Positions 3-8,778 of a DNA stretch of 8,778 nucleotides are shown one piece after another. The DNA comes from an archaeon (lineage in GTDB: Archaea > EX4484-52 > WAPT01): assembly GCA_029258795.1 (NCBI GenBank), contig JAPDKB010000017.1, positions 1 through 8,778 of the forward strand. Reading direction: 5' to 3'. Within the stretch, counting starts at the first letter, position 1; each line of letters opens with the position of its first letter. Below the pieces are notes generated by a model that was given only the letters and a program-made list of their open reading frames with translations, had not been told where the DNA came from and did no database searches. A program made the position numbers and the translations under genes.

Positions 3-209
3 GTATTGGTGCATAGTCAACAAGATCCTGTTATTGAAGCTATAAAACAGCAGCAGCCATTTAGTAGCGATTTACTTAATTATTATGGTTTAAGAGGTCC
101 AATCAAAATATGGAAAATTAACTATCCAGATAGCATTATCGCTAGACCAGAGTTTGTAAAGACACAAGGAGAGTGGGCAGAACTCGATGGTTTGCAATTT
201 ACTTCTTAG
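3..209 (+). CDS. 3' end of an unrecognised protein-coding gene (partial)
   Basis: This is the last 68 codons of a gene whose start lies before the window. The frame is open from the first complete codon (GTA at 3-5) to the TAG at 207-209. A TTG at 6-8 could be read as a start, but the open frame upstream of it makes truncation by the window edge more likely. The visible tail begins VLVHSQQDPVIEAI, has a middle stretch GLRGPIKIWKINYPDS, and ends GEWAELDGLQFTS. It looks soluble and well mixed in composition, with no membrane segment, and unlike the operon proteins it is not lysine-rich. I do not recognise the family. By hand count its first 180 bases hold 65 G/C (about 36%), higher than two 60-base samples of the operon. 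It is separated from the operon by 45 bases containing a promoter-like element, so it is probably an independent unit. Confidence 0.7.
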   Translation, partial: VLVHSQQDPVIEAIKQQQPFSSDLLNYYGLRGPIKIWKINYPDSIIARPEFVKTQGEWAELDGLQFTS

Positions 210-235: not shown

Positions 236-254
236 TGTTAAAGTATCAGAAGTA

Positions 255-1364
255 ATGATGGCTAAAATAGCATTCATAATTGGGACAAGAGCAGAGTTAA
301 TAAAGACTTTTCCTGTTATGTTGGAACTACAAAAACAAAATATTGATTATTGGTTTATTCATACAGGACAACATAATCTTGGTAATCTATGCGAACAATT
401 TGGTATTAAAAAACCAGATTTTGTTCTTACTAAAGAGCCTACTAAAGCTACAACAAAATTTTTTCAAAGTTATACAAAGATAAGTGTTTGGAATCTTGAA
501 GTTATAACTAAAATAAAATTTTTACTTAACAGACTAAAAGGCTTAAAGTATGTGCTCTATCACGGTGATACAGCTTCTACCATGAATGCAGCAATAGCTT
601 CATCAAAATTACTCAATCCGTTTAAAAAATATAAAAATATCCATCTCGAAGCAGGGTTAAGGTCTGGCAATTTATTTGAACCATTTCCAGAAGAAATAAG
701 CAGAATTATTGCCGATCATTTTTCTGATATACTATTTGCTGTATCCAAACGAAGTAAAAAAAATTTGCAAAAATATGAAAAAAAGAAACAAATAATTGTA
801 ACCGGAAATACAATTATTGATGCAGCTTTAATAGCATATAAATTAGCAAAGAAAAAAAAGTTGAAGAAGTTAGCTAAACATTATGCTTTAGTATCTGTAC
901 ATAGAGATGAAAATCTGAAAAGTAAATCAAGATTAACTAGTATTGTTGAGATCATTACTTCAGTGCCAATTGATGTTTATTGGACATTGCATGATAATAC
1001 GAAAAAATATCTCATTAAATATAGATTGTGGAAAAAAATTAAAAAAAGTAAAAATGTTCATGTAGTCAAACATATGTGTTACATCGATTTTATTTATCAT
1101 CTTAGCAATGCTAATTTATTGCTTACAGATGGTGGAAGTATTCAAGAAGAAAGTTTAATTTTTAAAAAGCCATGTGTAATATTGAGGAAATTTACTGAAC
1201 GTCAAGAGGGTTTAGCTACAGGAATAAATTTTCTAACGAAACTTGATATTGATTATAGCAAAAACATAATTTTAAAAATCCTATCAGGATTTAAAATACC
1301 AAAATTTAAAAACCCTTATGGTAAGCTAGGGGTAAGTAAAAAAATTGTAAGGTTATTGCGATGA
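255..1364 (+). CDS. wecB: UDP-N-acetylglucosamine 2-epimerase, non-hydrolysing (WecB/MnaA family, diverged)
   Basis: Members of this family interconvert UDP-GlcNAc and UDP-ManNAc in the cytoplasm, supplying ManNAc-type sugars for surface glycans. The 369-residue length is normal for the GT-B-fold enzyme. Visible family motifs are the N-terminal loop IIGTRAELIK (8-17), HTGQH (36-40), HGDTAST (103-109), HLEAGLR (130-136), PFPEEISR (143-150), VTGNTIIDA (182-190), SVHRDEN (214-220) and SIQEES (295-300). The residues that match the acid/base and UDP-contact positions of the E. coli enzyme are present: D105, E132, E147 and H216. Several usually fixed spots differ: GTRPE reads GTRAE, DSGG reads DGGS, and TERPE reads TERQE. 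The nucleotide sugar may therefore not be exactly UDP-GlcNAc. ATGs at 255 and 258 are in frame; either keeps the first beta strand. It is the first gene of the operon, and its stop overlaps the next start (ATGA at 1361). Confidence 0.88.
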   Translation: MMAKIAFIIGTRAELIKTFPVMLELQKQNIDYWFIHTGQHNLGNLCEQFGIKKPDFVLTKEPTKATTKFFQSYTKISVWNLEVITKIKFLLNRLKGLKYVLYHGDTASTMNAAIASSKLLNPFKKYKNIHLEAGLRSGNLFEPFPEEISRIIADHFSDILFAVSKRSKKNLQKYEKKKQIIVTGNTIIDAALIAYKLAKKKKLKKLAKHYALVSVHRDENLKSKSRLTSIVEIITSVPIDVYWTLHDNTKKYLIKYRLWKKIKKSKNVHVVKHMCYIDFIYHLSNANLLLTDGGSIQEESLIFKKPCVILRKFTERQEGLATGINFLTKLDIDYSKNIILKILSGFKIPKFKNPYGKLGVSKKIVRLLR

Positions 1365-2317
1365 TTAAATTAATAGTGAATGGGTATTATAGAAGTGGTA
1401 GTACTCTGTTATTTAAGATGTTGGAGCTAGCTAATCCTAAAACTTTAGTTCTATATGAACCATTACATCCTGAAATTTTCTTTTCTTTTATGAGGTTTGG
1501 TCCAAATTATATAGAACCGCTTCATAATTATACTATATATAGATGTTATTTTAAATTATCGAAATTTAAATTAATCAAACAATTACACTATAAAATAGGA
1601 TTTAATTATTTTGATTGGAACAAGTATACTACATCTTTCTTTGATGCTATTCATAACATTAATAAGCCAACAATTCTTCAACTTAATAGAGGACATTTTA
1701 TCTTATATAATATGTATCAAAGATATAAATGCAGGTTTATCCACGTTATACGAAATCCTTTAGATGAGTGGTTATCTTTTATTAGTCCCACTATTATGAA
1801 TAAAAAAATTGAGCTAACGATTTGCGGTATAAGACTGCCTTCTTTGCTTAAAACTATATTTAAGGTTCATGAATTACCTTATATATGGAAAATGATAAAA
1901 AGAAAAATTCAATTAAGAAAAACAGGCCCATTTTATTTAGATTTAGAATTCGAACTGATAAAAAATAAATTCAAATTGAAACTTACCCCCCGGGATAGAT
2001 TTGATAAGTTTATTTTGCTCTGGACAATCATTAATAAGTCTGCTATTGCCCAAGTAAACCGGACTAGGTATGGTATGTATGTTTGGTATGAAAATATTGT
2101 TCTAAAGAAAAATGAATTAAACAAATTAGAAAAATTCTCTAACTTTAAATTCAAAACTAAAGAGATACAAGTATATAATAAATCGATATTTAAGTTTGAT
2201 ATGGAACTTCTAAAAGAATTTTGGGAAAGATGTGAGAGATTAGGAATAAAAAATGATGTAAGAAGTATACTTAAAACATCTAAAAATGAAAATTTGCTTA
2301 GTATCACGGAAATTTGA
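1361..2317 (+). CDS. Sulfotransferase family protein A (PAPS-dependent)
   Basis: Predicted to transfer sulfate from PAPS to a hydroxyl or amino group, probably on the glycan made by this operon. The N-terminus has the 5'-phosphosulfate-binding loop directly after the first beta strand (NGYYRSGSTLLFKML, 7-21). The 3'-phosphate-binding motif RNPLDEWLSF is at 131-140, with R131 and S139. A later W-to-YENI region (VWYENI, 241-246) matches the position of the conserved YE(D/N)L element in this family. The 318-residue length fits. There is no signal peptide or membrane segment, so the enzyme is probably cytoplasmic. The start shares an ATGA with the epimerase stop. The 3' end overlaps the next gene by 32 bases. 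A six-C tract at 1986-1991 (codons 209-211) is unusual in such AT-rich DNA but keeps the frame. It is clearly different from the second sulfotransferase here, so the two are not a recent duplication. The acceptor is unknown. Confidence 0.82.
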   Translation: MIKLIVNGYYRSGSTLLFKMLELANPKTLVLYEPLHPEIFFSFMRFGPNYIEPLHNYTIYRCYFKLSKFKLIKQLHYKIGFNYFDWNKYTTSFFDAIHNINKPTILQLNRGHFILYNMYQRYKCRFIHVIRNPLDEWLSFISPTIMNKKIELTICGIRLPSLLKTIFKVHELPYIWKMIKRKIQLRKTGPFYLDLEFELIKNKFKLKLTPRDRFDKFILLWTIINKSAIAQVNRTRYGMYVWYENIVLKKNELNKLEKFSNFKFKTKEIQVYNKSIFKFDMELLKEFWERCERLGIKNDVRSILKTSKNENLLSITEI

Positions 2318-3341
2318 TAAAAGCAGTGGTAGTGCGGAATGGATATATGCAGATAAGGTTAAAGAAGAATTAATTAGTCGGGGTTATACTGTGTATACTA
2401 TAGAACAAAAAGATTCGGGAATATATTCTTCAAAAATTAAAAAAATTTTTCATGATTTTTTTGTTTTACCTGCCAAACTTTTATATTATCGGATTTTTAA
2501 GCATGTAAAACTATATCATTTTTTTACTGAAAATCAAGCAATATACAGTTGGCTTTTACGATTATTAGGGGTTAGTACTATTGTTAATTTTCATGATTTA
2601 ATGGGGATCAAATTATCGAAAAAATTATTACGAAAAAATTATTTCTTTTTAATATATTGGTTAGCAACTTTTACAAATATTATTATTTGTAATTCAATTG
2701 CTACAAAAAATGATTTAATTATGTTAAATCCTTTTTGCAGAAAAAAGATAGTTTTAGTTTACCCTGTTCACAGAAAATTATCTAAGAAAAAATTAATAAA
2801 AAATAAAGGAGAATTTATAATCGGGTATTTAGGGGCTTTAAATTACAGAAAAAGACCTTTTTTATTATTAGACTTAGCTAGAAAAATAAAGCAAAATAAA
2901 ATTCAGGGTTTGCATATTCATGTATGGGGACAAGGACCTACATACGATTATATGATAAATAAAATAAAAAAAGAAAGATTATCCTCCTTTATATCAATGA
3001 AGGGATTCGCATCTGAAGAAAAAATCAATTCCATCTATCATTCTTTCGATTTTTTTGTTTTTCCCTCTTTGTATGAAGGATTAGGGTTGCCTGCTATTGA
3101 GGCAATGATGGTGGGGTTGCCTGTATTCGTTTTGAATGATGCATATATCCCCCATGAAGTAAAAAAAGGTTGCATTATATGTAAAAATATAGACGATTTA
3201 TTAAATAAAATCATTTATTTAATGTCAAATAAAAAAGCATATATTAAAGCCTGTAAAAAATCCATATCTTGTTCAAGAAGGTTTGAGTTTAATAGAAATA
3301 TTAAAAAATTAATTAACCTATATAAAAAGTTAGCAAAATGA
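2286..3341 (+). CDS. Glycosyltransferase family 4-like protein A (GT-B fold, retaining)
   Basis: Predicted cytoplasmic or membrane-peripheral enzyme that transfers a sugar from a nucleotide donor onto a growing lipid-linked glycan. The 351 residues show an N-terminal Rossmann half beginning MKICLVSRKF, a linker at about 155-175, and a C-terminal donor domain opening IIGYLGALNYRKRP (178-191). The diagnostic E-x7-E motif is intact in YEGLGLPAIE (E264 and E272), followed by the usual AMMVGLPVFV. VWGQGP (213-218) and MKGFASEEKI (238-247) match GT4 loop positions. The start at 2286 is accepted even though it overlaps the sulfotransferase gene by 32 bases, because the first residues form the family's first beta strand and no later start would keep it. 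The stop overlaps the next gene (ATGA at 3338). Donor and acceptor sugars cannot be read from the sequence. Confidence 0.88.
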   Translation: MKICLVSRKFDKSSGSAEWIYADKVKEELISRGYTVYTIEQKDSGIYSSKIKKIFHDFFVLPAKLLYYRIFKHVKLYHFFTENQAIYSWLLRLLGVSTIVNFHDLMGIKLSKKLLRKNYFFLIYWLATFTNIIICNSIATKNDLIMLNPFCRKKIVLVYPVHRKLSKKKLIKNKGEFIIGYLGALNYRKRPFLLLDLARKIKQNKIQGLHIHVWGQGPTYDYMINKIKKERLSSFISMKGFASEEKINSIYHSFDFFVFPSLYEGLGLPAIEAMMVGLPVFVLNDAYIPHEVKKGCIICKNIDDLLNKIIYLMSNKKAYIKACKKSISCSRRFEFNRNIKKLINLYKKLAK

Positions 3342-4429
3342 TAGACATATATCTTCAATATCCATGGAAATTTCCAGATTCTCCTTATTATAAGTATTTA
3401 GTCAATTATCCTCCAAAAGGTGTAAACTATATTAATGTGAAAAAACAAAGGTTTGGGGTGGTTACTTCAAAGAAAAAGTTTGCATTATTAAATTTCACGA
3501 AAAAATCGGTAAGATTTGTTTTGAATAAATTTAAACTACCAATTCCAAACGCCCACATTTCCCCAACACAAGATTATGATTTAATTCACTGTGCCCATTG
3601 TTTAAGTTTAAATAAAAAACCTTGGGTTGCCGATTTTGAAGCTGCATGGCAAATGTGGATTTCTGGTATGGATACAAGGCTAGGTAAGCAGGTAGTTAGG
3701 AAGATTCTATTAAGTAAATATTGTAAAAAGATAATGCCGTGGACAAATGCAACAAAACAGCAGATACTGCAAATTTTTCCAGAGAAGAAAATAAAAGAGA
3801 AAATTGAAGTGGTATATCCAGCTGTACCTCTACCTAAAATAAAGAAAAAAAAGAAAAAGAACGAAATTACTATATTATATGTGTCTAGGTATTTCTGGAT
3901 TAAAGGAGGTTTGATCGCTTTAGAAACTCTAAGAAGATTAAAGAAAAAGTATGATATCAATGAGTATTTTATTTCAGATGTTCCACCCCACATAAAGAAA
4001 AAATATAAAGAAATCAACATAATTGGTTTAGTTCCTCAAGAAAAATTGTTTAATTATTATTATCCAAATTCTGACATCTTCTTTTACCCAAGTTTTTCAG
4101 ATAATTTCGGTTTTGCATTGCTTGAAGCTATGTCTTTTGGTCTACCAATTGTTACAATCACGACACCTCATACCCCTGGAAGAAATGAAATAGTAACAGC
4201 CCAGGTAGGTTTTATTAGATCTTTATCTAAAGTCCCAAATATTTATTCTCTTACGAAGTTAAAAGGATTAATTAATTTTTTATTTACTTCAATTTCCTTT
4301 TTATTAATATCTTCTAAACTGAGAAAGAAAATGTCAAGAAACTGTAGAAAAATTATTAAAGAGGGCAAATTTTCAATAAAATACAGGAATAAAAAAATAA
4401 AAGAAATTTATGAAATTGTAAAACGGTAA
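3338..4429 (+). CDS. Glycosyltransferase family 4-like protein B (GT-B fold, E-x7-E variant)
   Basis: A second GT4-type transferase of 363 residues, with little visible similarity to its upstream neighbour in the N-terminal half, so it probably adds a different sugar or makes a different linkage. The donor domain begins ITILYVSRYFWIKGGL (177-192). It includes IIGLVPQEKLFNYY (228-241) and the signature region FSDNFGFALLEAMSFGLPIV (253-272). In the E-x7-E motif the first Glu is replaced by Asp (D255, with E263 retained). The acceptor-side domain is short and carries DLIHCAHCLSL (81-91) and a Trp-rich segment at 96-107. A lysine-only run in the interdomain linker (168-174) is encoded by an A-rich tract with an eight-A run near 3846-3853. 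The start lies in an ATGA overlap with the upstream stop. The next gene follows after a single base. Confidence 0.83.
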   Translation: MIDIYLQYPWKFPDSPYYKYLVNYPPKGVNYINVKKQRFGVVTSKKKFALLNFTKKSVRFVLNKFKLPIPNAHISPTQDYDLIHCAHCLSLNKKPWVADFEAAWQMWISGMDTRLGKQVVRKILLSKYCKKIMPWTNATKQQILQIFPEKKIKEKIEVVYPAVPLPKIKKKKKKNEITILYVSRYFWIKGGLIALETLRRLKKKYDINEYFISDVPPHIKKKYKEINIIGLVPQEKLFNYYYPNSDIFFYPSFSDNFGFALLEAMSFGLPIVTITTPHTPGRNEIVTAQVGFIRSLSKVPNIYSLTKLKGLINFLFTSISFLLISSKLRKKMSRNCRKIIKEGKFSIKYRNKKIKEIYEIVKR

Positions 4430-4430
4430 A

Positions 4431-5282
4431 ATGAAAAAACCAAATTTTTTTTTGGTAGGTGCACCCCGTTGCGGGACAACTTCATTTTATGAATATCTTA
4501 GAGAACATCCAGAAGTATTTATGTCACCTATAAAAGGTCCTAATTTTTTTGGCGAAGTACCAAATCCTTCTTTTCCCCAATTTCATAATAATATAAAAAA
4601 ATATTTATCCCTTTTTTCTAAATGTAAGAACGAAAAAATTATTGGAGAAGCTTCCCATTATTTTAACTCTGCAAGAGCACCAAGTCAAATAAAAAAGTTT
4701 AATCCTAATTCAAAAATATTAATTTTGATAAGGAACCCTGTTGATGTCGTTTATTCTTATTATTACTCTGGCCTTATTCCTAATCGCATACCTATATCTC
4801 AATCACTTCGATTAGATCATCCTTCAGTAAAAGATATGTGGAAAAATTTACAATATGGAACAAATATTCGTAGGTGGATAAAATATTTTGGTAAAAATAA
4901 TGTTAAGATTATTATTTTCGAAGAATTCCTGCAAAATCCTCAAAAATGTTTTAAAGAATTGTGTAATTTTCTTGAAATTAATGATACTTTTACTCCTAAA
5001 TTTGTTAAATATAATCCATCTGCCAAGAAAAAGAATAAATTATTGCTAAAAATCATACGAGCAATCCCTGTAAGTTTTAGAATTTGGATAAAAAATATCT
5101 TACCTGATAATTTTTTAACTAAAATTAAATTATTTTTATCTAAAATTACCATTAAAGAAGTAATAGAAAAACAGAAAGATCCACAAATAGAACAATATAT
5201 TAAAAAAAGACTTAAAAATGAAATATTATTAGCAAGTAAAATTTTAAAGATTAACTTAATAAAGAAATGGTTTCAGAAATGA
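4431..5282 (+). CDS. Sulfotransferase family protein B (heparan-sulfate-sulfotransferase-like)
   Basis: Predicted PAPS-dependent sulfotransferase of the Sulfotransfer_1 type, the group that includes heparan sulfate N- and O-sulfotransferases. The 5'-phosphosulfate loop is FLVGAPRCGTTSFYEYL (7-23). SPIKGPNFFGE (32-42) corresponds to the family's KEP-x-FF segment, and IGEASHYF (71-78) is the usual GE-S-P/H-Y element. The 3'-phosphate-binding motif is RNPVDVVYSYYYS (101-113), and FEEFLQNP (163-170) follows. The length of 283 residues is normal, and nearly all canonical elements are present, so it is probably active. Family resemblance suggests a carbohydrate acceptor. It starts one base after the upstream TAA and ends in an ATGA overlap with the GT2 gene. 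A nine-T run at 4445-4453, only 14 bases into the gene, could allow slippage. The two sulfotransferases differ in loop sequence (RSGST versus PRCGTT), consistent with different acceptor positions. Confidence 0.88.
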   Translation: MKKPNFFLVGAPRCGTTSFYEYLREHPEVFMSPIKGPNFFGEVPNPSFPQFHNNIKKYLSLFSKCKNEKIIGEASHYFNSARAPSQIKKFNPNSKILILIRNPVDVVYSYYYSGLIPNRIPISQSLRLDHPSVKDMWKNLQYGTNIRRWIKYFGKNNVKIIIFEEFLQNPQKCFKELCNFLEINDTFTPKFVKYNPSAKKKNKLLLKIIRAIPVSFRIWIKNILPDNFLTKIKLFLSKITIKEVIEKQKDPQIEQYIKKRLKNEILLASKILKINLIKKWFQK

Positions 5283-6094
5283 AAGTCTCTTTGATTTGTA
5301 CAGTAAAAAATGAAGAGGATAACATACGCCAGTTTATGAACTCTATAATCCATCAAACTAGAAAACCGGACGAGTTTATTATCGTTGATGGTGGTTCAAC
5401 AGATAATACTTACAACATTTTAAAAGAATATGCAAAAAAATATAAGTGGATTAAAGTTTATCAAGTTAAGGGCGCGAATATCTCTGAGGGGAGGAACTAT
5501 GCTATAAAAAGGTCTAAATATGATATAATTGCTGTATGTGATGCTGGAACAAAATATAAAAAAGATTGGTTAGAAAAATTAGTAGCAGGATTTAATGGTC
5601 AAGTTAGTTTTGGTATAGATAAACCTTTGGCAAAAACAAAATTTCAAAAAATTTTAGGAAGAAAGCTTTGCCATAAGTTTAAGGAAGGATCATCCAGAAA
5701 TATGATTTTTTTAAAAAAAATTTGGGAAGAAGTTGGAGGGTATCCTGAAGATCTCTTTATAGGGGAGGATTCTGTATTTGATGAAAAAATAAAGAGAAAA
5801 GGGTATAAAATTTCGATTGTAAAAGATGCTGTATGTTATTGGCAGATGCGTAAAAATATTAAGGAACTGAAAAAACAGTTTTATAACTATGGTTTTTGGG
5901 ATGGGGTCGCATATAAAAAATATAGGATGTTGCCATTAAAACACAAAATAGCTATAATTTTATTAACTTTAATGTTTCCTCTTTTTCTACCTTTATTTTT
6001 TATCTCCAGGTTTTCATTATCTTTAAAAATAGAGTTTGTAAGAAGGTTTTATTATCTAATCGGATTTTGGAGGGGTTTATTAACTATTCAATAA
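5279..6094 (+). CDS. Glycosyltransferase family 2 protein with C-terminal membrane segment
   Basis: Predicted inverting GT-A transferase acting at the inner face of the membrane. I chose the ATG at 5279 (271 residues) over an in-frame ATG at 5267. The later start forms an ATGA overlap like four other junctions here and places MKVSLICTVKNEE exactly on the family's first beta strand. Visible elements are the nucleotide-binding VDGGSTDNT (36-44) and GRNYAIKRSKYDII (71-84). The DxD position reads CDAG (87-90), so only the first Asp is kept. VGGYPEDLFIGEDSVFDEKI (152-171) carries the catalytic-type ED pair (163-164), and YWQMR (187-191) lies in the acceptor-side region. A hydrophobic segment at about 224-243 probably anchors the C-terminus in the membrane, with a further weakly hydrophobic stretch near 257-269. 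Loss of the second Asp is common among GT2 enzymes and does not imply inactivity. Confidence 0.88.
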   Translation: MKVSLICTVKNEEDNIRQFMNSIIHQTRKPDEFIIVDGGSTDNTYNILKEYAKKYKWIKVYQVKGANISEGRNYAIKRSKYDIIAVCDAGTKYKKDWLEKLVAGFNGQVSFGIDKPLAKTKFQKILGRKLCHKFKEGSSRNMIFLKKIWEEVGGYPEDLFIGEDSVFDEKIKRKGYKISIVKDAVCYWQMRKNIKELKKQFYNYGFWDGVAYKKYRMLPLKHKIAIILLTLMFPLFLPLFFISRFSLSLKIEFVRRFYYLIGFWRGLLTIQ

Positions 6095-6097
6095 AAA

Positions 6098-7189
6098 ATG
6101 ATAAAAAATAAAATGAAAGTCGAAATTTTAGAGAAAAGTGATCGGGAGACCTGGAAACAATTACAGCAACTATCTAATTTATCGTTTCATTTTAAATTAG
6201 AATTAATTCATGTAATAGAAAATACTTACTCTAATTGTAAATCTTTATATTATTTGATTAAAGATAAAGATCAGATCAAAGCATTATTCCCTTTTTTTAT
6301 TGTGAAAAGTAAATTGTTTAGTACTAGAGTTATTTCGCTTCCTTTTTTTGATGTTGGATATTTTTGGGGAAATTATGATTTATTACCACAAGTTATAGAG
6401 ATGATTAGAAACTTTAAAGAATATGATATTTCCAGTATTGAAATTAGAACAAATACCTTTGTTTCCAACTTTAATACATTAAAACAAATTTTAGAAAAAA
6501 TTGGATTTATTCCTGTACCGTCTAAACAACAATTCATACTTAGGCTTACGTCAGAAGAAGATTTATGGAAAAGGTTTCACAAACATACACGGAACGATAT
6601 TAGAAAGGCGCTTAAATCAGGGTTAAAAATTGTTAAGATTGATAATAAACAGGAAGTTAAAAAATTTTATAAGCTTTATTTTAGTGAAATGAGGCGGTTT
6701 GGTACTCCTCAACATTCTTTTAAATTTTTTGAAAACATGTTTACTCTTATGAACAATTATGTTTTGGGCTTGAACTGTTATTATAATGATATCATGATTG
6801 CATCATTGATCATGCTTTATGGGGGTGATTATGGATACATTATGTTTAATGTTTCTAACCCTTCATATAGAAAATTTAGGCCAAACGATTTGTTATATTG
6901 GGAAGCAATAAAGTATGGATTAAATAATAATCTAAAATTTATCGACCTTGGACAAGTTGATGCTAATTCAGAACCTGGCACTCATGCTTATGGTATTTAT
7001 AAGTTTAAGAGTAAATGGTTGGGTGATTTGTATGATAGAATTTATTTCTATTATTCTTTTGAGGGTCAACCATCGTTAGCTGGAGAAAAGAAGGAAAAAT
7101 ATAAAAAATTTAGAGCTATGTGGAGAAAATTACCACCACTTATAATTAAAAAACTTGGGCCTTGGTTATGTGCGCAACTGGCAATATGA
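6098..7189 (+). CDS. FemAB-like (tandem GNAT) aminoacyl/acyl transferase
   Basis: Resembles the FemABX / Acetyltransf_6 group, whose bacterial members add amino acids to peptidoglycan precursors and whose other members sit in exopolysaccharide loci. The 363 residues suit two GNAT-like halves, at about 1-148 and 149-320. The second half has the diagnostic order: LWKRFHKHTRNDIRKALKSG (156-175), then MRRFGTPQHSFKFF (198-211), YGYIMFNVSNPSYRKFRPND (245-264), and FIDLGQV (281-287) followed by GIYKFKSKWLG (299-309). No signal peptide is visible, so it is probably cytoplasmic and uses aminoacyl-tRNA or acyl-CoA; which one cannot be told from the sequence. The ATG at 6098 is three bases after the upstream stop; an ATG at 6113 (MKVEILEK) is an alternative start. 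The likely job is adding an amino acid or acyl group to an amino sugar of this glycan (inference). Confidence 0.8.
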   Translation: MIKNKMKVEILEKSDRETWKQLQQLSNLSFHFKLELIHVIENTYSNCKSLYYLIKDKDQIKALFPFFIVKSKLFSTRVISLPFFDVGYFWGNYDLLPQVIEMIRNFKEYDISSIEIRTNTFVSNFNTLKQILEKIGFIPVPSKQQFILRLTSEEDLWKRFHKHTRNDIRKALKSGLKIVKIDNKQEVKKFYKLYFSEMRRFGTPQHSFKFFENMFTLMNNYVLGLNCYYNDIMIASLIMLYGGDYGYIMFNVSNPSYRKFRPNDLLYWEAIKYGLNNNLKFIDLGQVDANSEPGTHAYGIYKFKSKWLGDLYDRIYFYYSFEGQPSLAGEKKEKYKKFRAMWRKLPPLIIKKLGPWLCAQLAI

Positions 7190-7791
7190 AAAAAAACCAA
7201 GGTAATAAATATTGGACGAACCCTTATGTAGCATATAATATCTACCCAAAACTTGTAAAGGTATTAACTAAATTTTTGGAACCTGGGTGGAAGATCTTAG
7301 ATGCTGGTTGTGGTATAGGGAACTTAGCTAAATTTTTACCATCTTATTATAAATTATATGGCTGTGATATTCAAAAATCTGCATTAGCTGAAGCAAAACA
7401 ATTGAAAAAATACGAAAAAATTATTTATGCTGATTTAAATAAAAAACTTCCATTTAAGGATTGCGAATACGATGCTGCCGTTTCTGTTGAAGTATTCGAT
7501 TATTTGAGTGATCCTTGGTTTAGTTTAAGAGAACTAGCAAGAGTAGTTAAATATAGAGTTATTGTAGTAGTACCTAATTATAACTGGTTAAAATTTTTTT
7601 ACGGATCACATAAATTACCAAAATACACTAAACATACTCTTGATTTTAATGTAAACTTTTTAATAAATCTTGGTAAAACATGCGATTTAAACATAGAAAA
7701 AATCTTTTATATATCAAATAAATTTGAGAGATTTAGGAATTTGTTTGGTAATTGGTTGGCAAGTAATGTTGGTATAGTATATAAAAAATGA
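7186..7791 (+). CDS. Class I SAM-dependent methyltransferase
   Basis: Predicted S-adenosylmethionine-dependent methyltransferase of the Methyltransf_11 type, probably acting on a sugar of the glycan. I chose the ATG at 7186 (201 residues) because it forms an ATGA overlap with the upstream stop. Upstream in-frame starts at 7162 (TTG) and 7168 (ATG) would run 19-28 bases into the FemAB-like gene and add residues with no domain role. Motif I is ILDAGCGIGNLAKFL (37-51). The acidic residue that binds the ribose is D61 in YGCDIQKSAL. YADLNKKLPF (81-90) contacts the adenine in relatives. EVFDYLSDPWFSLRELARVV (102-121) matches the motif IV to post-motif region. The C-terminal part is short and carries no added domain. 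There is an eight-A run immediately after the start codon (7189-7196). The substrate is not identifiable from the sequence. Confidence 0.85.
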   Translation: MKKNQGNKYWTNPYVAYNIYPKLVKVLTKFLEPGWKILDAGCGIGNLAKFLPSYYKLYGCDIQKSALAEAKQLKKYEKIIYADLNKKLPFKDCEYDAAVSVEVFDYLSDPWFSLRELARVVKYRVIVVVPNYNWLKFFYGSHKLPKYTKHTLDFNVNFLINLGKTCDLNIEKIFYISNKFERFRNLFGNWLASNVGIVYKK

Positions 7792-8579
7792 TAAAACGAT
7801 ATTTTGCACTAAGAGTTGATTTAGAATCTTATAAAGGAATAAAGTACGGTCTTCCTAATATTCTTGATCTTCTTGCAGAATTTGATCTTAAAGCTTCTTT
7901 TTACTTGGTGATGGGTGGCGAATCTAATTTGATTGAATTGTTAAGGTACAGGGAAAAAATAAAAGGGGAGAGGAAAATTAAAGTTTATACACTCAAAGAA
8001 AAATTGAGAATAGCTTTATTTCCATGCGATTTTGTAACTAAAAATCTAAATATAATAAGGCGAATTCTAAGGGAAGGTCACGAGTTAGGTATTCATGGAT
8101 GGAAACATAGAGCATGGACAAGGGCTCTAGATAAAATTAATATTGAAGAACATATAAAAAAAGCAAAACAAAAATATATTAAATTATTTAGCCAAATTCC
8201 TATTTCATTTGCTGCTCCAGGTTTTAGAACTAATATGGAAGTAATAAAACTTCTTGATAAATATGGGTTTAAGGTTATAAGCGATCTTCCTGGAGAAAAA
8301 CCATTTAAAATTAAAGGTACAAATATAATCAATGTTCCTGTTAATATTTGTGGAAATGATAACATGCCGATAATAGAATCATTAACACAAAAACGATATA
8401 ATGATGACAAGATTGTTACTCATCTAGTTCATAAAATTAAGAAAACAAAATACTCAGTAATGTATATTCATGGTTTATTTGAAGGCATGAATAAAATAGA
8501 GTTGCTTAGAAATCTATTTTTAAAATTGAAAAAAAATAATATAAACATAAGAAGGATAGTTGATATAGCGAAACTGTAA
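7788..8579 (+). CDS. ArnD-like polysaccharide deacetylase / deformylase (NodB-fold)
   Basis: Carbohydrate esterase 4 / NodB-fold hydrolase of 263 residues that most resembles ArnD, the enzyme that deformylates undecaprenyl-phosphate 4-deoxy-4-formamido-L-arabinose. The resemblance, recalled from the E. coli sequence, runs along the whole chain: RVDLESYKGIKYGLPNIL (9-26) against RIDVDTFRGTREGVPRLL; GHELGIHGWKHRAW (97-110) against HHEVGLHCWDHHAW; AAPGFRTN (142-149) against AAAGWRAD; and IINVPVNI (180-187). VMYIHGLFEG (224-233) matches the late His strand. The metal ligands H103 and H107 and the acidic D11 are present. The second acidic residue is Glu (E13) instead of Asp. An insert at about 58-92 occupies the place of ArnD's membrane-facing insertion. 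By homology it would remove a formyl or acetyl group from a polyprenyl-phosphate-linked amino sugar. No other Arn gene is present. It starts in an ATGA overlap and is the last gene of the operon. Confidence 0.83.
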   Translation: MIKRYFALRVDLESYKGIKYGLPNILDLLAEFDLKASFYLVMGGESNLIELLRYREKIKGERKIKVYTLKEKLRIALFPCDFVTKNLNIIRRILREGHELGIHGWKHRAWTRALDKINIEEHIKKAKQKYIKLFSQIPISFAAPGFRTNMEVIKLLDKYGFKVISDLPGEKPFKIKGTNIINVPVNICGNDNMPIIESLTQKRYNDDKIVTHLVHKIKKTKYSVMYIHGLFEGMNKIELLRNLFLKLKKNNINIRRIVDIAKL

Positions 8580-8603
8580 AAATTAATTCATTTAGTTCGT
8601 AAC

Positions 8604-8612
8604 CTTTATAAA
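8604..8612 (+). promoter_or_regulatory. Archaeal TATA box for the downstream gene
   Basis: CTTTATAAA sits in the 56-base gap between the operon's last stop (8579) and the next ATG (8636). Its centre, near 8608, is 26-28 bases before the ATG, the usual archaeal TATA-to-start distance, so the transcript would begin at or within a few bases of the start codon. No Shine-Dalgarno sequence lies between them, consistent with a leaderless message. The pyrimidine-rich CCTTCTTTTTC at 8612-8622 could also help terminate the upstream operon, but that is weak. Confidence 0.65.
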
Positions 8613-8635
8613 CCTTCTTTTTCAAAACTTAATTT

Positions 8636-8778
8636 ATGAGTGATGACATCTATATTGAATTAGAGGAACTTAAAGAAAAAATACAAGAATATAAGAAGCG
8701 TTACTGGGAAGCAGGAAGAAAGGATAACCAAATCAAAGATGAACATTTACGAAATGAATTATATGCGCTGAAGAAAGA
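8636..8778 (+). CDS. 5' end of an unrecognised gene, N-terminal coiled-coil-like (partial)
   Basis: The frame is open from the ATG at 8636 to the window edge (47 complete codons). The product begins MSDDIYIELEELKEKIQEYK and continues with a highly charged, Glu/Lys-rich sequence containing RRYWEAG-like spacing (KRYWEAGRKDN) and LRNELYALKK. The pattern suggests an alpha-helical, probably coiled-coil N-terminus. Such starts occur in many families, including AAA ATPases and DNA-associated proteins, and I cannot assign one. Evidence that it is real: a well-placed TATA box 24-32 bases upstream, an uninterrupted frame, and codon use consistent with coding. It is separated from the glycan operon by its own promoter, so it is probably not part of the pathway. 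Confidence 0.65.
   Translation, partial: MSDDIYIELEELKEKIQEYKKRYWEAGRKDNQIKDEHLRNELYALKK

Follow-up and report, generated by a model that had tools for sequence, protein, structure and literature searches.

We analyzed an 8778-base stretch of DNA (the window), which is the whole of contig C12, one of the 23 contigs of the metagenome-assembled genome (MAG) G000. The nine-gene operon that fills most of it is very likely the variable, biosynthetic part of a DPANN N-glycosylation locus of the archaeal AglB type, a cassette swapped at the strain level, and the contig was probably assigned to the wrong MAG. A first-pass annotation of the sequence had read the operon as a pathway for one decorated surface glycan, probably archaeal. 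This interpretation was supported with regard to the archaeal origin and the single glycan, but it had missed both the AglB locus and the swappable nature of the cassette.

Cassette exchange beside aglB

The ends of the window match locus L149 of G473, a DPANN genome placed in the GTDB phylum of "Nanoarchaeota archaeon RA.bin88", and the DNA between them does not. The features that define the exchange are as follows.

1-248: left conserved flank, 99.2% DNA identity to L149 12229-11982; identity stops at 248
3-209, plus strand: AglB/STT3 oligosaccharyltransferase, C-terminal 68 residues, 5' end cut by the contig end; identified from relatives
249-8598: exchanged cassette of 8350 bases; its counterpart in G473 is L149 2500-11981 (9482 bases)
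8599-8778: right conserved flank, 99.4% DNA identity to L149 2499-2320
8636-8778, plus strand: start of an 88-residue coiled-coil-like gene, 3' end cut, 97.9% identity over 47 residues to L149 2196-2462

Given these flank identities, the window represents the same locus in the species of G473 or in an extremely close one. Identity ended abruptly 39 bases past the aglB stop codon and came back 20 bases past the stop codon of the deacetylase gene that closes the operon, and both breakpoints sit in intergenic DNA. In G473 the intervening genes encode GT4, GT4b, GT2, GT4, GT17 and GT4 glycosyltransferases, a Sulfotransfer_3 protein, a GT9 glycosyltransferase and an FkbM methyltransferase. The only close relative common to the two cassettes is GT4b, at 53% protein identity, and even this protein of the window is nearer to its counterparts in other DPANN genomes, at loci L135 (59%) and L121 (57%). 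At the level of enzyme classes, both alleles contain GT4b, a sulfotransferase and a methyltransferase. Two alleles of the locus were thus seen, with near-identical flanks and differing gene content between strains. The earlier framing as a unique, fixed operon does not hold; a near-identical strain carries an alternative allele.

In bacterial O-antigen and capsule switching, sugar-biosynthesis genes between conserved flanks are replaced wholesale between strains. By analogy, the exchange pattern seen here resembles those loci and has the same flank-and-swap layout, with the difference that it concerns an archaeon and that AglB would attach the product to proteins as an N-glycan. The exchange probably came about by homologous recombination within the flanks: crossovers in the aglB end and in the flank with the small coiled-coil gene would swap the whole cassette among conspecific strains, and a cell would change its N-glycan while keeping the transferase AglB.

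The truncated open reading frame (ORF) at 3-209 and the gene start at 8636 had both been overlooked in the first-pass annotation. Pfam and PDB searches gave no identification for ORF 3-209. In DPANN relatives its counterpart is the C-terminal end of an 880-1000-residue protein encoded just upstream of wecB, one of which (L116 4842-7787) matches STT3 (PF02516). A motif of the type YxGxRGPIKIWKxxYP was common to 13 AglB C-termini of DPANN loci aligned with ORF 3-209. Moreover, the ORF was 98.5% identical over 68 residues to the end of the 906-residue G473 AglB, which matches PF02516 STT3 and the PF21436 core and contains the catalytic WWDYG motif. Hence ORF 3-209 is the AglB C-terminus and the operon directly follows aglB; the cluster includes an oligosaccharyltransferase gene, of which the window covers the last 68 residues only. 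At the other end, a TATA-like box (TTTATAAA) lies at about 8605-8612, ahead of the gene starting at 8636. The predicted RNA fold of the aglB-wecB gap was not better than shuffles, and scans for bacterial promoters and terminators gave results at or below chance.

Nothing pointed to a viral origin of the cassette: viral contigs, in a collection from which close records may be missing, contained no flank matches, and no phage match was found. In two further genomes, the gene arrangement was unusual: AglB of L151 (1054-3977) is apparently split into two ORFs by a frameshift or intervening DNA, and the Nanoarchaeota genome REEA64 has two GT4b copies at contig ends (L126 and L127), perhaps alternative cassettes or an assembly break.

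Gene content and related archaeal loci

The region 255-8579 is filled by nine consecutive ORFs on the plus strand, in agreement with the operon described earlier. Neighboring genes overlap, mostly by a 4-base ATGA, or lie no more than 3 bases apart, so that the nine genes almost certainly form one transcription unit. Family scans bore out all nine of the family names proposed before, that of the first sulfotransferase weakly, and resolved the three glycosyltransferases into two of family 4 and one of family 2. PAPS is 3'-phosphoadenosine 5'-phosphosulfate and SAM is S-adenosylmethionine.

255-1364, plus strand: WecB, non-hydrolysing UDP-GlcNAc 2-epimerase (PF02350, 2e-63; TIGR00236, 231.8 bits)
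1361-2317, plus strand: ST1, divergent PAPS-type sulfotransferase (Sulfotransfer_1, 23.1 bits, cut-off 22)
2286-3341, plus strand: GT4a, family 4 glycosyltransferase (Glycos_transf_1, 3e-29; 32% to L113 13092-14039)
3338-4429, plus strand: GT4b, DPANN-type family 4 glycosyltransferase and locus marker (Glycos_transf_1, 1.7e-13)
4431-5282, plus strand: ST2, sulfotransferase (Sulfotransfer_1, 1.4e-16, 61 bits)
5279-6094, plus strand: GT2, family 2 glycosyltransferase (Glycos_transf_2, 3.6e-24; ORF open from 5267)
6098-7189, plus strand: FemAB-like aminoacyltransferase-fold protein (PF02388, 1e-16, 61 bits; TIGR03019, 120 bits)
7186-7791, plus strand: class I SAM methyltransferase (Methyltransf_11, 7e-16; ORF open from 7162)
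7788-8579, plus strand: ArnD-like polysaccharide deacetylase (PF01522, 3e-13; PRK15394 ArnD, 101 bits)

For GT2 and the methyltransferase, starts at 5279 and 7186, respectively, are more likely than the upstream ones because they produce ATGA overlaps. WecB scored above the curated TIGR00236 cut-off of 210.15 bits and shared 48-60% identity with its homologues from other archaeal genomes of small size. For GT2, identity was 40% to the GT2 that immediately follows GT4b in L113.

When named genomes were scanned for GT4b, 22 loci matched at 44-59% identity; 21 of them were labelled as DPANN or simply as archaeal, and the remaining one as 'bacterium'. Together with the position of the cassette directly behind aglB, this supports the archaeal origin proposed earlier. 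Within the phylum of L116, GT4b was present in 23 of 371 genomes. Across 33 distinct GT4b loci, AglB was close by in at least 23, WecB in at least 20 and a polyprenol-phosphate sugar-1-phosphate transferase in at least 17; these counts are lower bounds because contig ends truncate several of the loci. The counts are in line with glycosyltransferase and sugar-nucleotide genes placed beside aglB in an order conserved among relatives, while the decorating genes differ between loci and include FkbM methyltransferases, C-methyltransferases and epimerases. The expectation that relatives would share the gene order held in part: sub-blocks recur (AglB-WecB, GT4b-GT2, GT4b-FemAB and FemAB-deacetylase), but the exact nine-gene set was found in none of the 33 loci. 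The nearest arrangement was that of L150, with AglB-WecB-GT4b-FemAB-methyltransferase (opposite strand)-deacetylase-GT4. In L121, GT4b, GT2 and GT4a are consecutive and a sulfotransferase follows farther on. The AglB locus of L150 also contains NeuB and a cytidylyltransferase (2955-4749), which suggests a nonulosonic (sialic-acid-like) sugar in a DPANN N-glycan.

The adjacency to aglB supports the view that the nine genes serve one pathway for one surface glycan, for which the following scheme may be proposed. WecB would supply UDP-ManNAc, and GT4a, GT4b and GT2 would assemble a short polyprenol-linked oligosaccharide. This would be decorated by two sulfations (ST1 and ST2) and methylated by the methyltransferase, the ArnD-like enzyme would de-N-acetylate one amino sugar, and FemAB would probably put an amino acid on the freed amine. 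Finally, AglB would move the glycan to asparagines of surface proteins.

Alternatively, the product might be a capsule-like polysaccharide or a glycolipid rather than an N-glycan transferred by AglB. The FemAB protein and the deacetylase do resemble components of XrtA exopolysaccharide systems, and L149 has a Wzx-type flippase gene on the far side of the flanking gene. We nevertheless consider this unlikely: aglB abuts the cassette and lies near GT4b in 23 of the 33 loci, often with the polyprenol-phosphate sugar-1-phosphate transferase (17 of 33), and the window contains no polymerase or capsule export gene. A bacterial capsule locus in particular was rejected on account of the archaeal GT4b relatives and the adjacent aglB.

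FemAB-deacetylase pairing and predicted sulfation

Polysaccharide deacetylase genes were found in 9 of 15 archaeal FemAB loci, usually close to FemAB, compared with 1 of 31 GT4b loci lacking FemAB (Fisher p = 4e-5; 2e-4 with related genomes collapsed). The partner is ArnD-like in the window and in L150, and XrtA-type (TIGR03006) in genome G019 and locus L041. The pairing of FemAB with two different deacetylase subfamilies points to a requirement for the free amine that deacetylation yields. Amines are the acceptors to which FemAB proteins transfer amino acids carried by aminoacyl-tRNA, as established for FemX. In the simplest reading, an amino sugar would be de-N-acetylated and then N-aminoacylated by FemAB; for the glycan of the window, aminoacylation is a prediction from gene content. 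A literature search on FemAB-deacetylase pairs found nothing relevant and, as far as our searches went, a recurrent archaeal FemAB-deacetylase module in N-glycan loci is new. The pair provides a concrete, assayable hypothesis for aminoacylated archaeal glycans.

The solved relatives of the FemAB protein are FemX and an aminoacyl-tRNA-dependent peptide synthase, and it was 43-46% identical to the FemAB proteins encoded beside GT4b in L150 and L116. The deacetylase was 44% identical to that of L150. Its nearest solved sequence is Salmonella ArnD (8t0j), which was also the best match of its predicted fold (predicted local distance difference test score, pLDDT, 82; E 6e-17), and its motifs RVDLES, HELGIHGWKH and APGFR align with ArnD. 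Its score of 100.9 bits falls below the cut-off of 382 bits of the ArnD equivalog PRK15394. A comparable pairing of a FemAB homologue with a polysaccharide deacetylase is that of TIGR03019 and TIGR03006 in bacterial XrtA/PEP-CTERM systems. In contrast to that pair, the window proteins score below both cut-offs, the deacetylase is ArnD-like, no exosortase is encoded in the window, and the setting is an archaeal AglB locus. Genome G019 has two contigs (L037 and L038), each with FemAB adjoining an XrtA-type deacetylase and close to the bacterial exopolysaccharide pair; the deacetylase of L038 scored 257 bits against a cut-off of 276.

Both sulfotransferases carry PAPS-binding motifs. In ST2 these are APRCGTTS and RNPVDVVYSYY, and its solved relatives are heparan-type and bacterial enzymes (3rnl, heparan sulfate NDST and 3-O-sulfotransferases). 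The ST1 sequence contains the similar motifs YRSGST and RNPLDEWLSF, which support the assignment, and an AlphaFold2 prediction made without homologues was uninformative (pLDDT 38). ST2 was 34% identical to a sulfotransferase of L121 that adjoins PAPS genes. In L121 and L159 the glycan locus has, at its margin, a sulfotransferase gene next to genes for ATP sulfurylase and adenosine 5'-phosphosulfate (APS) kinase, an arrangement in favor of glycan sulfation in some of these archaea. For the window, sulfation is a plausible prediction. A literature search on DPANN sulfotransferases found nothing relevant. The 737-residue protein encoded at L121 18305-20512 combines pyruvate-kinase barrel, PUA_2 and ATP-sulfurylase domains and has a full-length relative at L159 130-2340, both beside APS kinase and sulfotransferase genes; this unusual fusion might couple ATP regeneration to PAPS synthesis.

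Several observations weigh against the reading of the window as an exchanged N-glycan cassette with these decorations. ST1 is a weak family match, just above the Pfam cut-off, and FemAB, at 120 bits, is well under the 260-bit curated cut-off of its nearest family, TIGR03019. No APS kinase scored above cut-off in G000 or G473; the window sulfotransferases would therefore need imported PAPS, for instance from a host, or an unrecognised enzyme, or have another function. The exact locus was seen in two alleles only, each from a MAG, and the window contains only short flanks of 248 and 180 bases. To our knowledge, no glycan structure has been described for any such archaeon. A more elaborate version, in which a serotype-like DPANN switching locus yields N-glycans with sulfate groups and with aminoacyl groups added from aminoacyl-tRNA by the deacetylase-FemAB pair, and in which PAPS is partly supplied by a host, can be held tentatively at best.

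Host genome and known systems

The MAG G000 (1.17 Mb) carries a full-length archaeal 16S rRNA gene. Its composition figures rest on sampled stretches of contigs. The guanine-plus-cytosine (GC) content of C12 was 27.7%, compared with about 44% in most sampled G000 contigs, and its tetranucleotide correlation was 0.33 to the G000 bulk and 0.43 to the G473 flank. No 25-mers were common to C12 and the sampled G000 contigs. GC content alone is not decisive for membership because glycan genes of low GC (31-37%) that run into DNA of normal GC are also present at the starts of contigs C4 and C7. Based on the GC gap, the tetranucleotide correlation of 0.33, a second, full-length AglB of G000's own on C7 the bacterial-looking contigs C11 and C13 and, decisively, the near-identity of both flanks to G473, the most likely source of C12 is a strain of the G473 species, and its place in G000 a binning error. 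DPANN glycan contigs, it appears, easily end up in the wrong genome bin.

If C12 truly belonged to G000, a recent horizontal transfer out of the G473 lineage would have brought in a second aglB along with the cassette. The placement of C12 in the bin and the low-GC starts of C4 and C7 are compatible with this, but aglB, the cassette and the flanking gene would all have had to move jointly and very recently, into a genome that already had a full-length AglB. The composition of C12, nearer to the G473 flank than to the G000 bulk, the absence of shared 25-mers among the sampled contigs and the bacterial-looking contigs in the bin also count against such a transfer, which we regard as improbable. 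That assembly chimaeras, and not a real allele, account for the junctions is very improbable indeed: although both flanks are short and at contig ends, where strain mixtures break assemblies, both joins are intergenic and lead into complete, intact operons, two independent erroneous joins to one locus in the correct order and orientation are unlikely, and GT4b independently ties the cassette to AglB loci.

Exchange of a cassette beside aglB, the reading we prefer, has precedents in haloarchaea. In Haloferax, the glycosyltransferase content of aglB-proximal clusters differs by strain and species, which its authors liken to bacterial serotypes (PMC5867893). As in the window, aglB stands there beside a cluster that varies among strains; the present case differs in its DPANN setting, in having FemAB, an ArnD-like deacetylase and sulfotransferases, and in the total replacement between 99%-identical flanks. 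The cell-wall genomic island of Haloquadratum walsbyi, also a surface-structure locus, occurs in alternative versions within one natural population, arising partly via homologous recombination; it holds mainly cell-surface glycoprotein and envelope genes (PMC4535781), whereas the cassette here is a compact set of nine N-glycan genes with aglB at its border. Sulfate and methylation, predicted here, are both present in the N-linked tetrasaccharide of Halobacterium salinarum, which carries sulfate and is methylated at the dolichol-linked stage; that glycan consists of hexose and hexuronic acids, and we found no FemAB or ArnD-like step described for it (PMC8674786). Sugar-coat switching is thus of a known kind, given Haloferax and Haloquadratum, and a sulfated N-glycan is known from Halobacterium. 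Clean replacement of a whole cassette at aglB in a DPANN archaeon is new, as far as our searches went.

A whole-cassette swap at aglB amid 99%-identical DNA indicates strong diversifying selection on the glycan, as for bacterial O-antigens, and such selection on DPANN glycans can be checked in existing metagenomes. For many DPANN archaea a life in attachment to other archaea is assumed, and surface glycans therefore likely determine which hosts are recognized, which viruses attack and with which partners recombination takes place.

Three other contigs of G000 were also distinctive. C11 (L062) and C13 (L063) are probably bacterial contaminants in the archaeal bin: C11 encodes one phosphate-transporter-like and one UbiB-like protein, and C13 repeatedly encodes beta-propeller-like proteins, whose C-terminus resembles a sorting signal (GVYFLRL...FILLNP). 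C10 (L061), also low in GC (29.6%), was dissimilar in composition to the G473 flanks (0.17) and carries an apparent defence island with a helicase containing a phospholipase-D-like domain and a large restriction-methylase-like protein.

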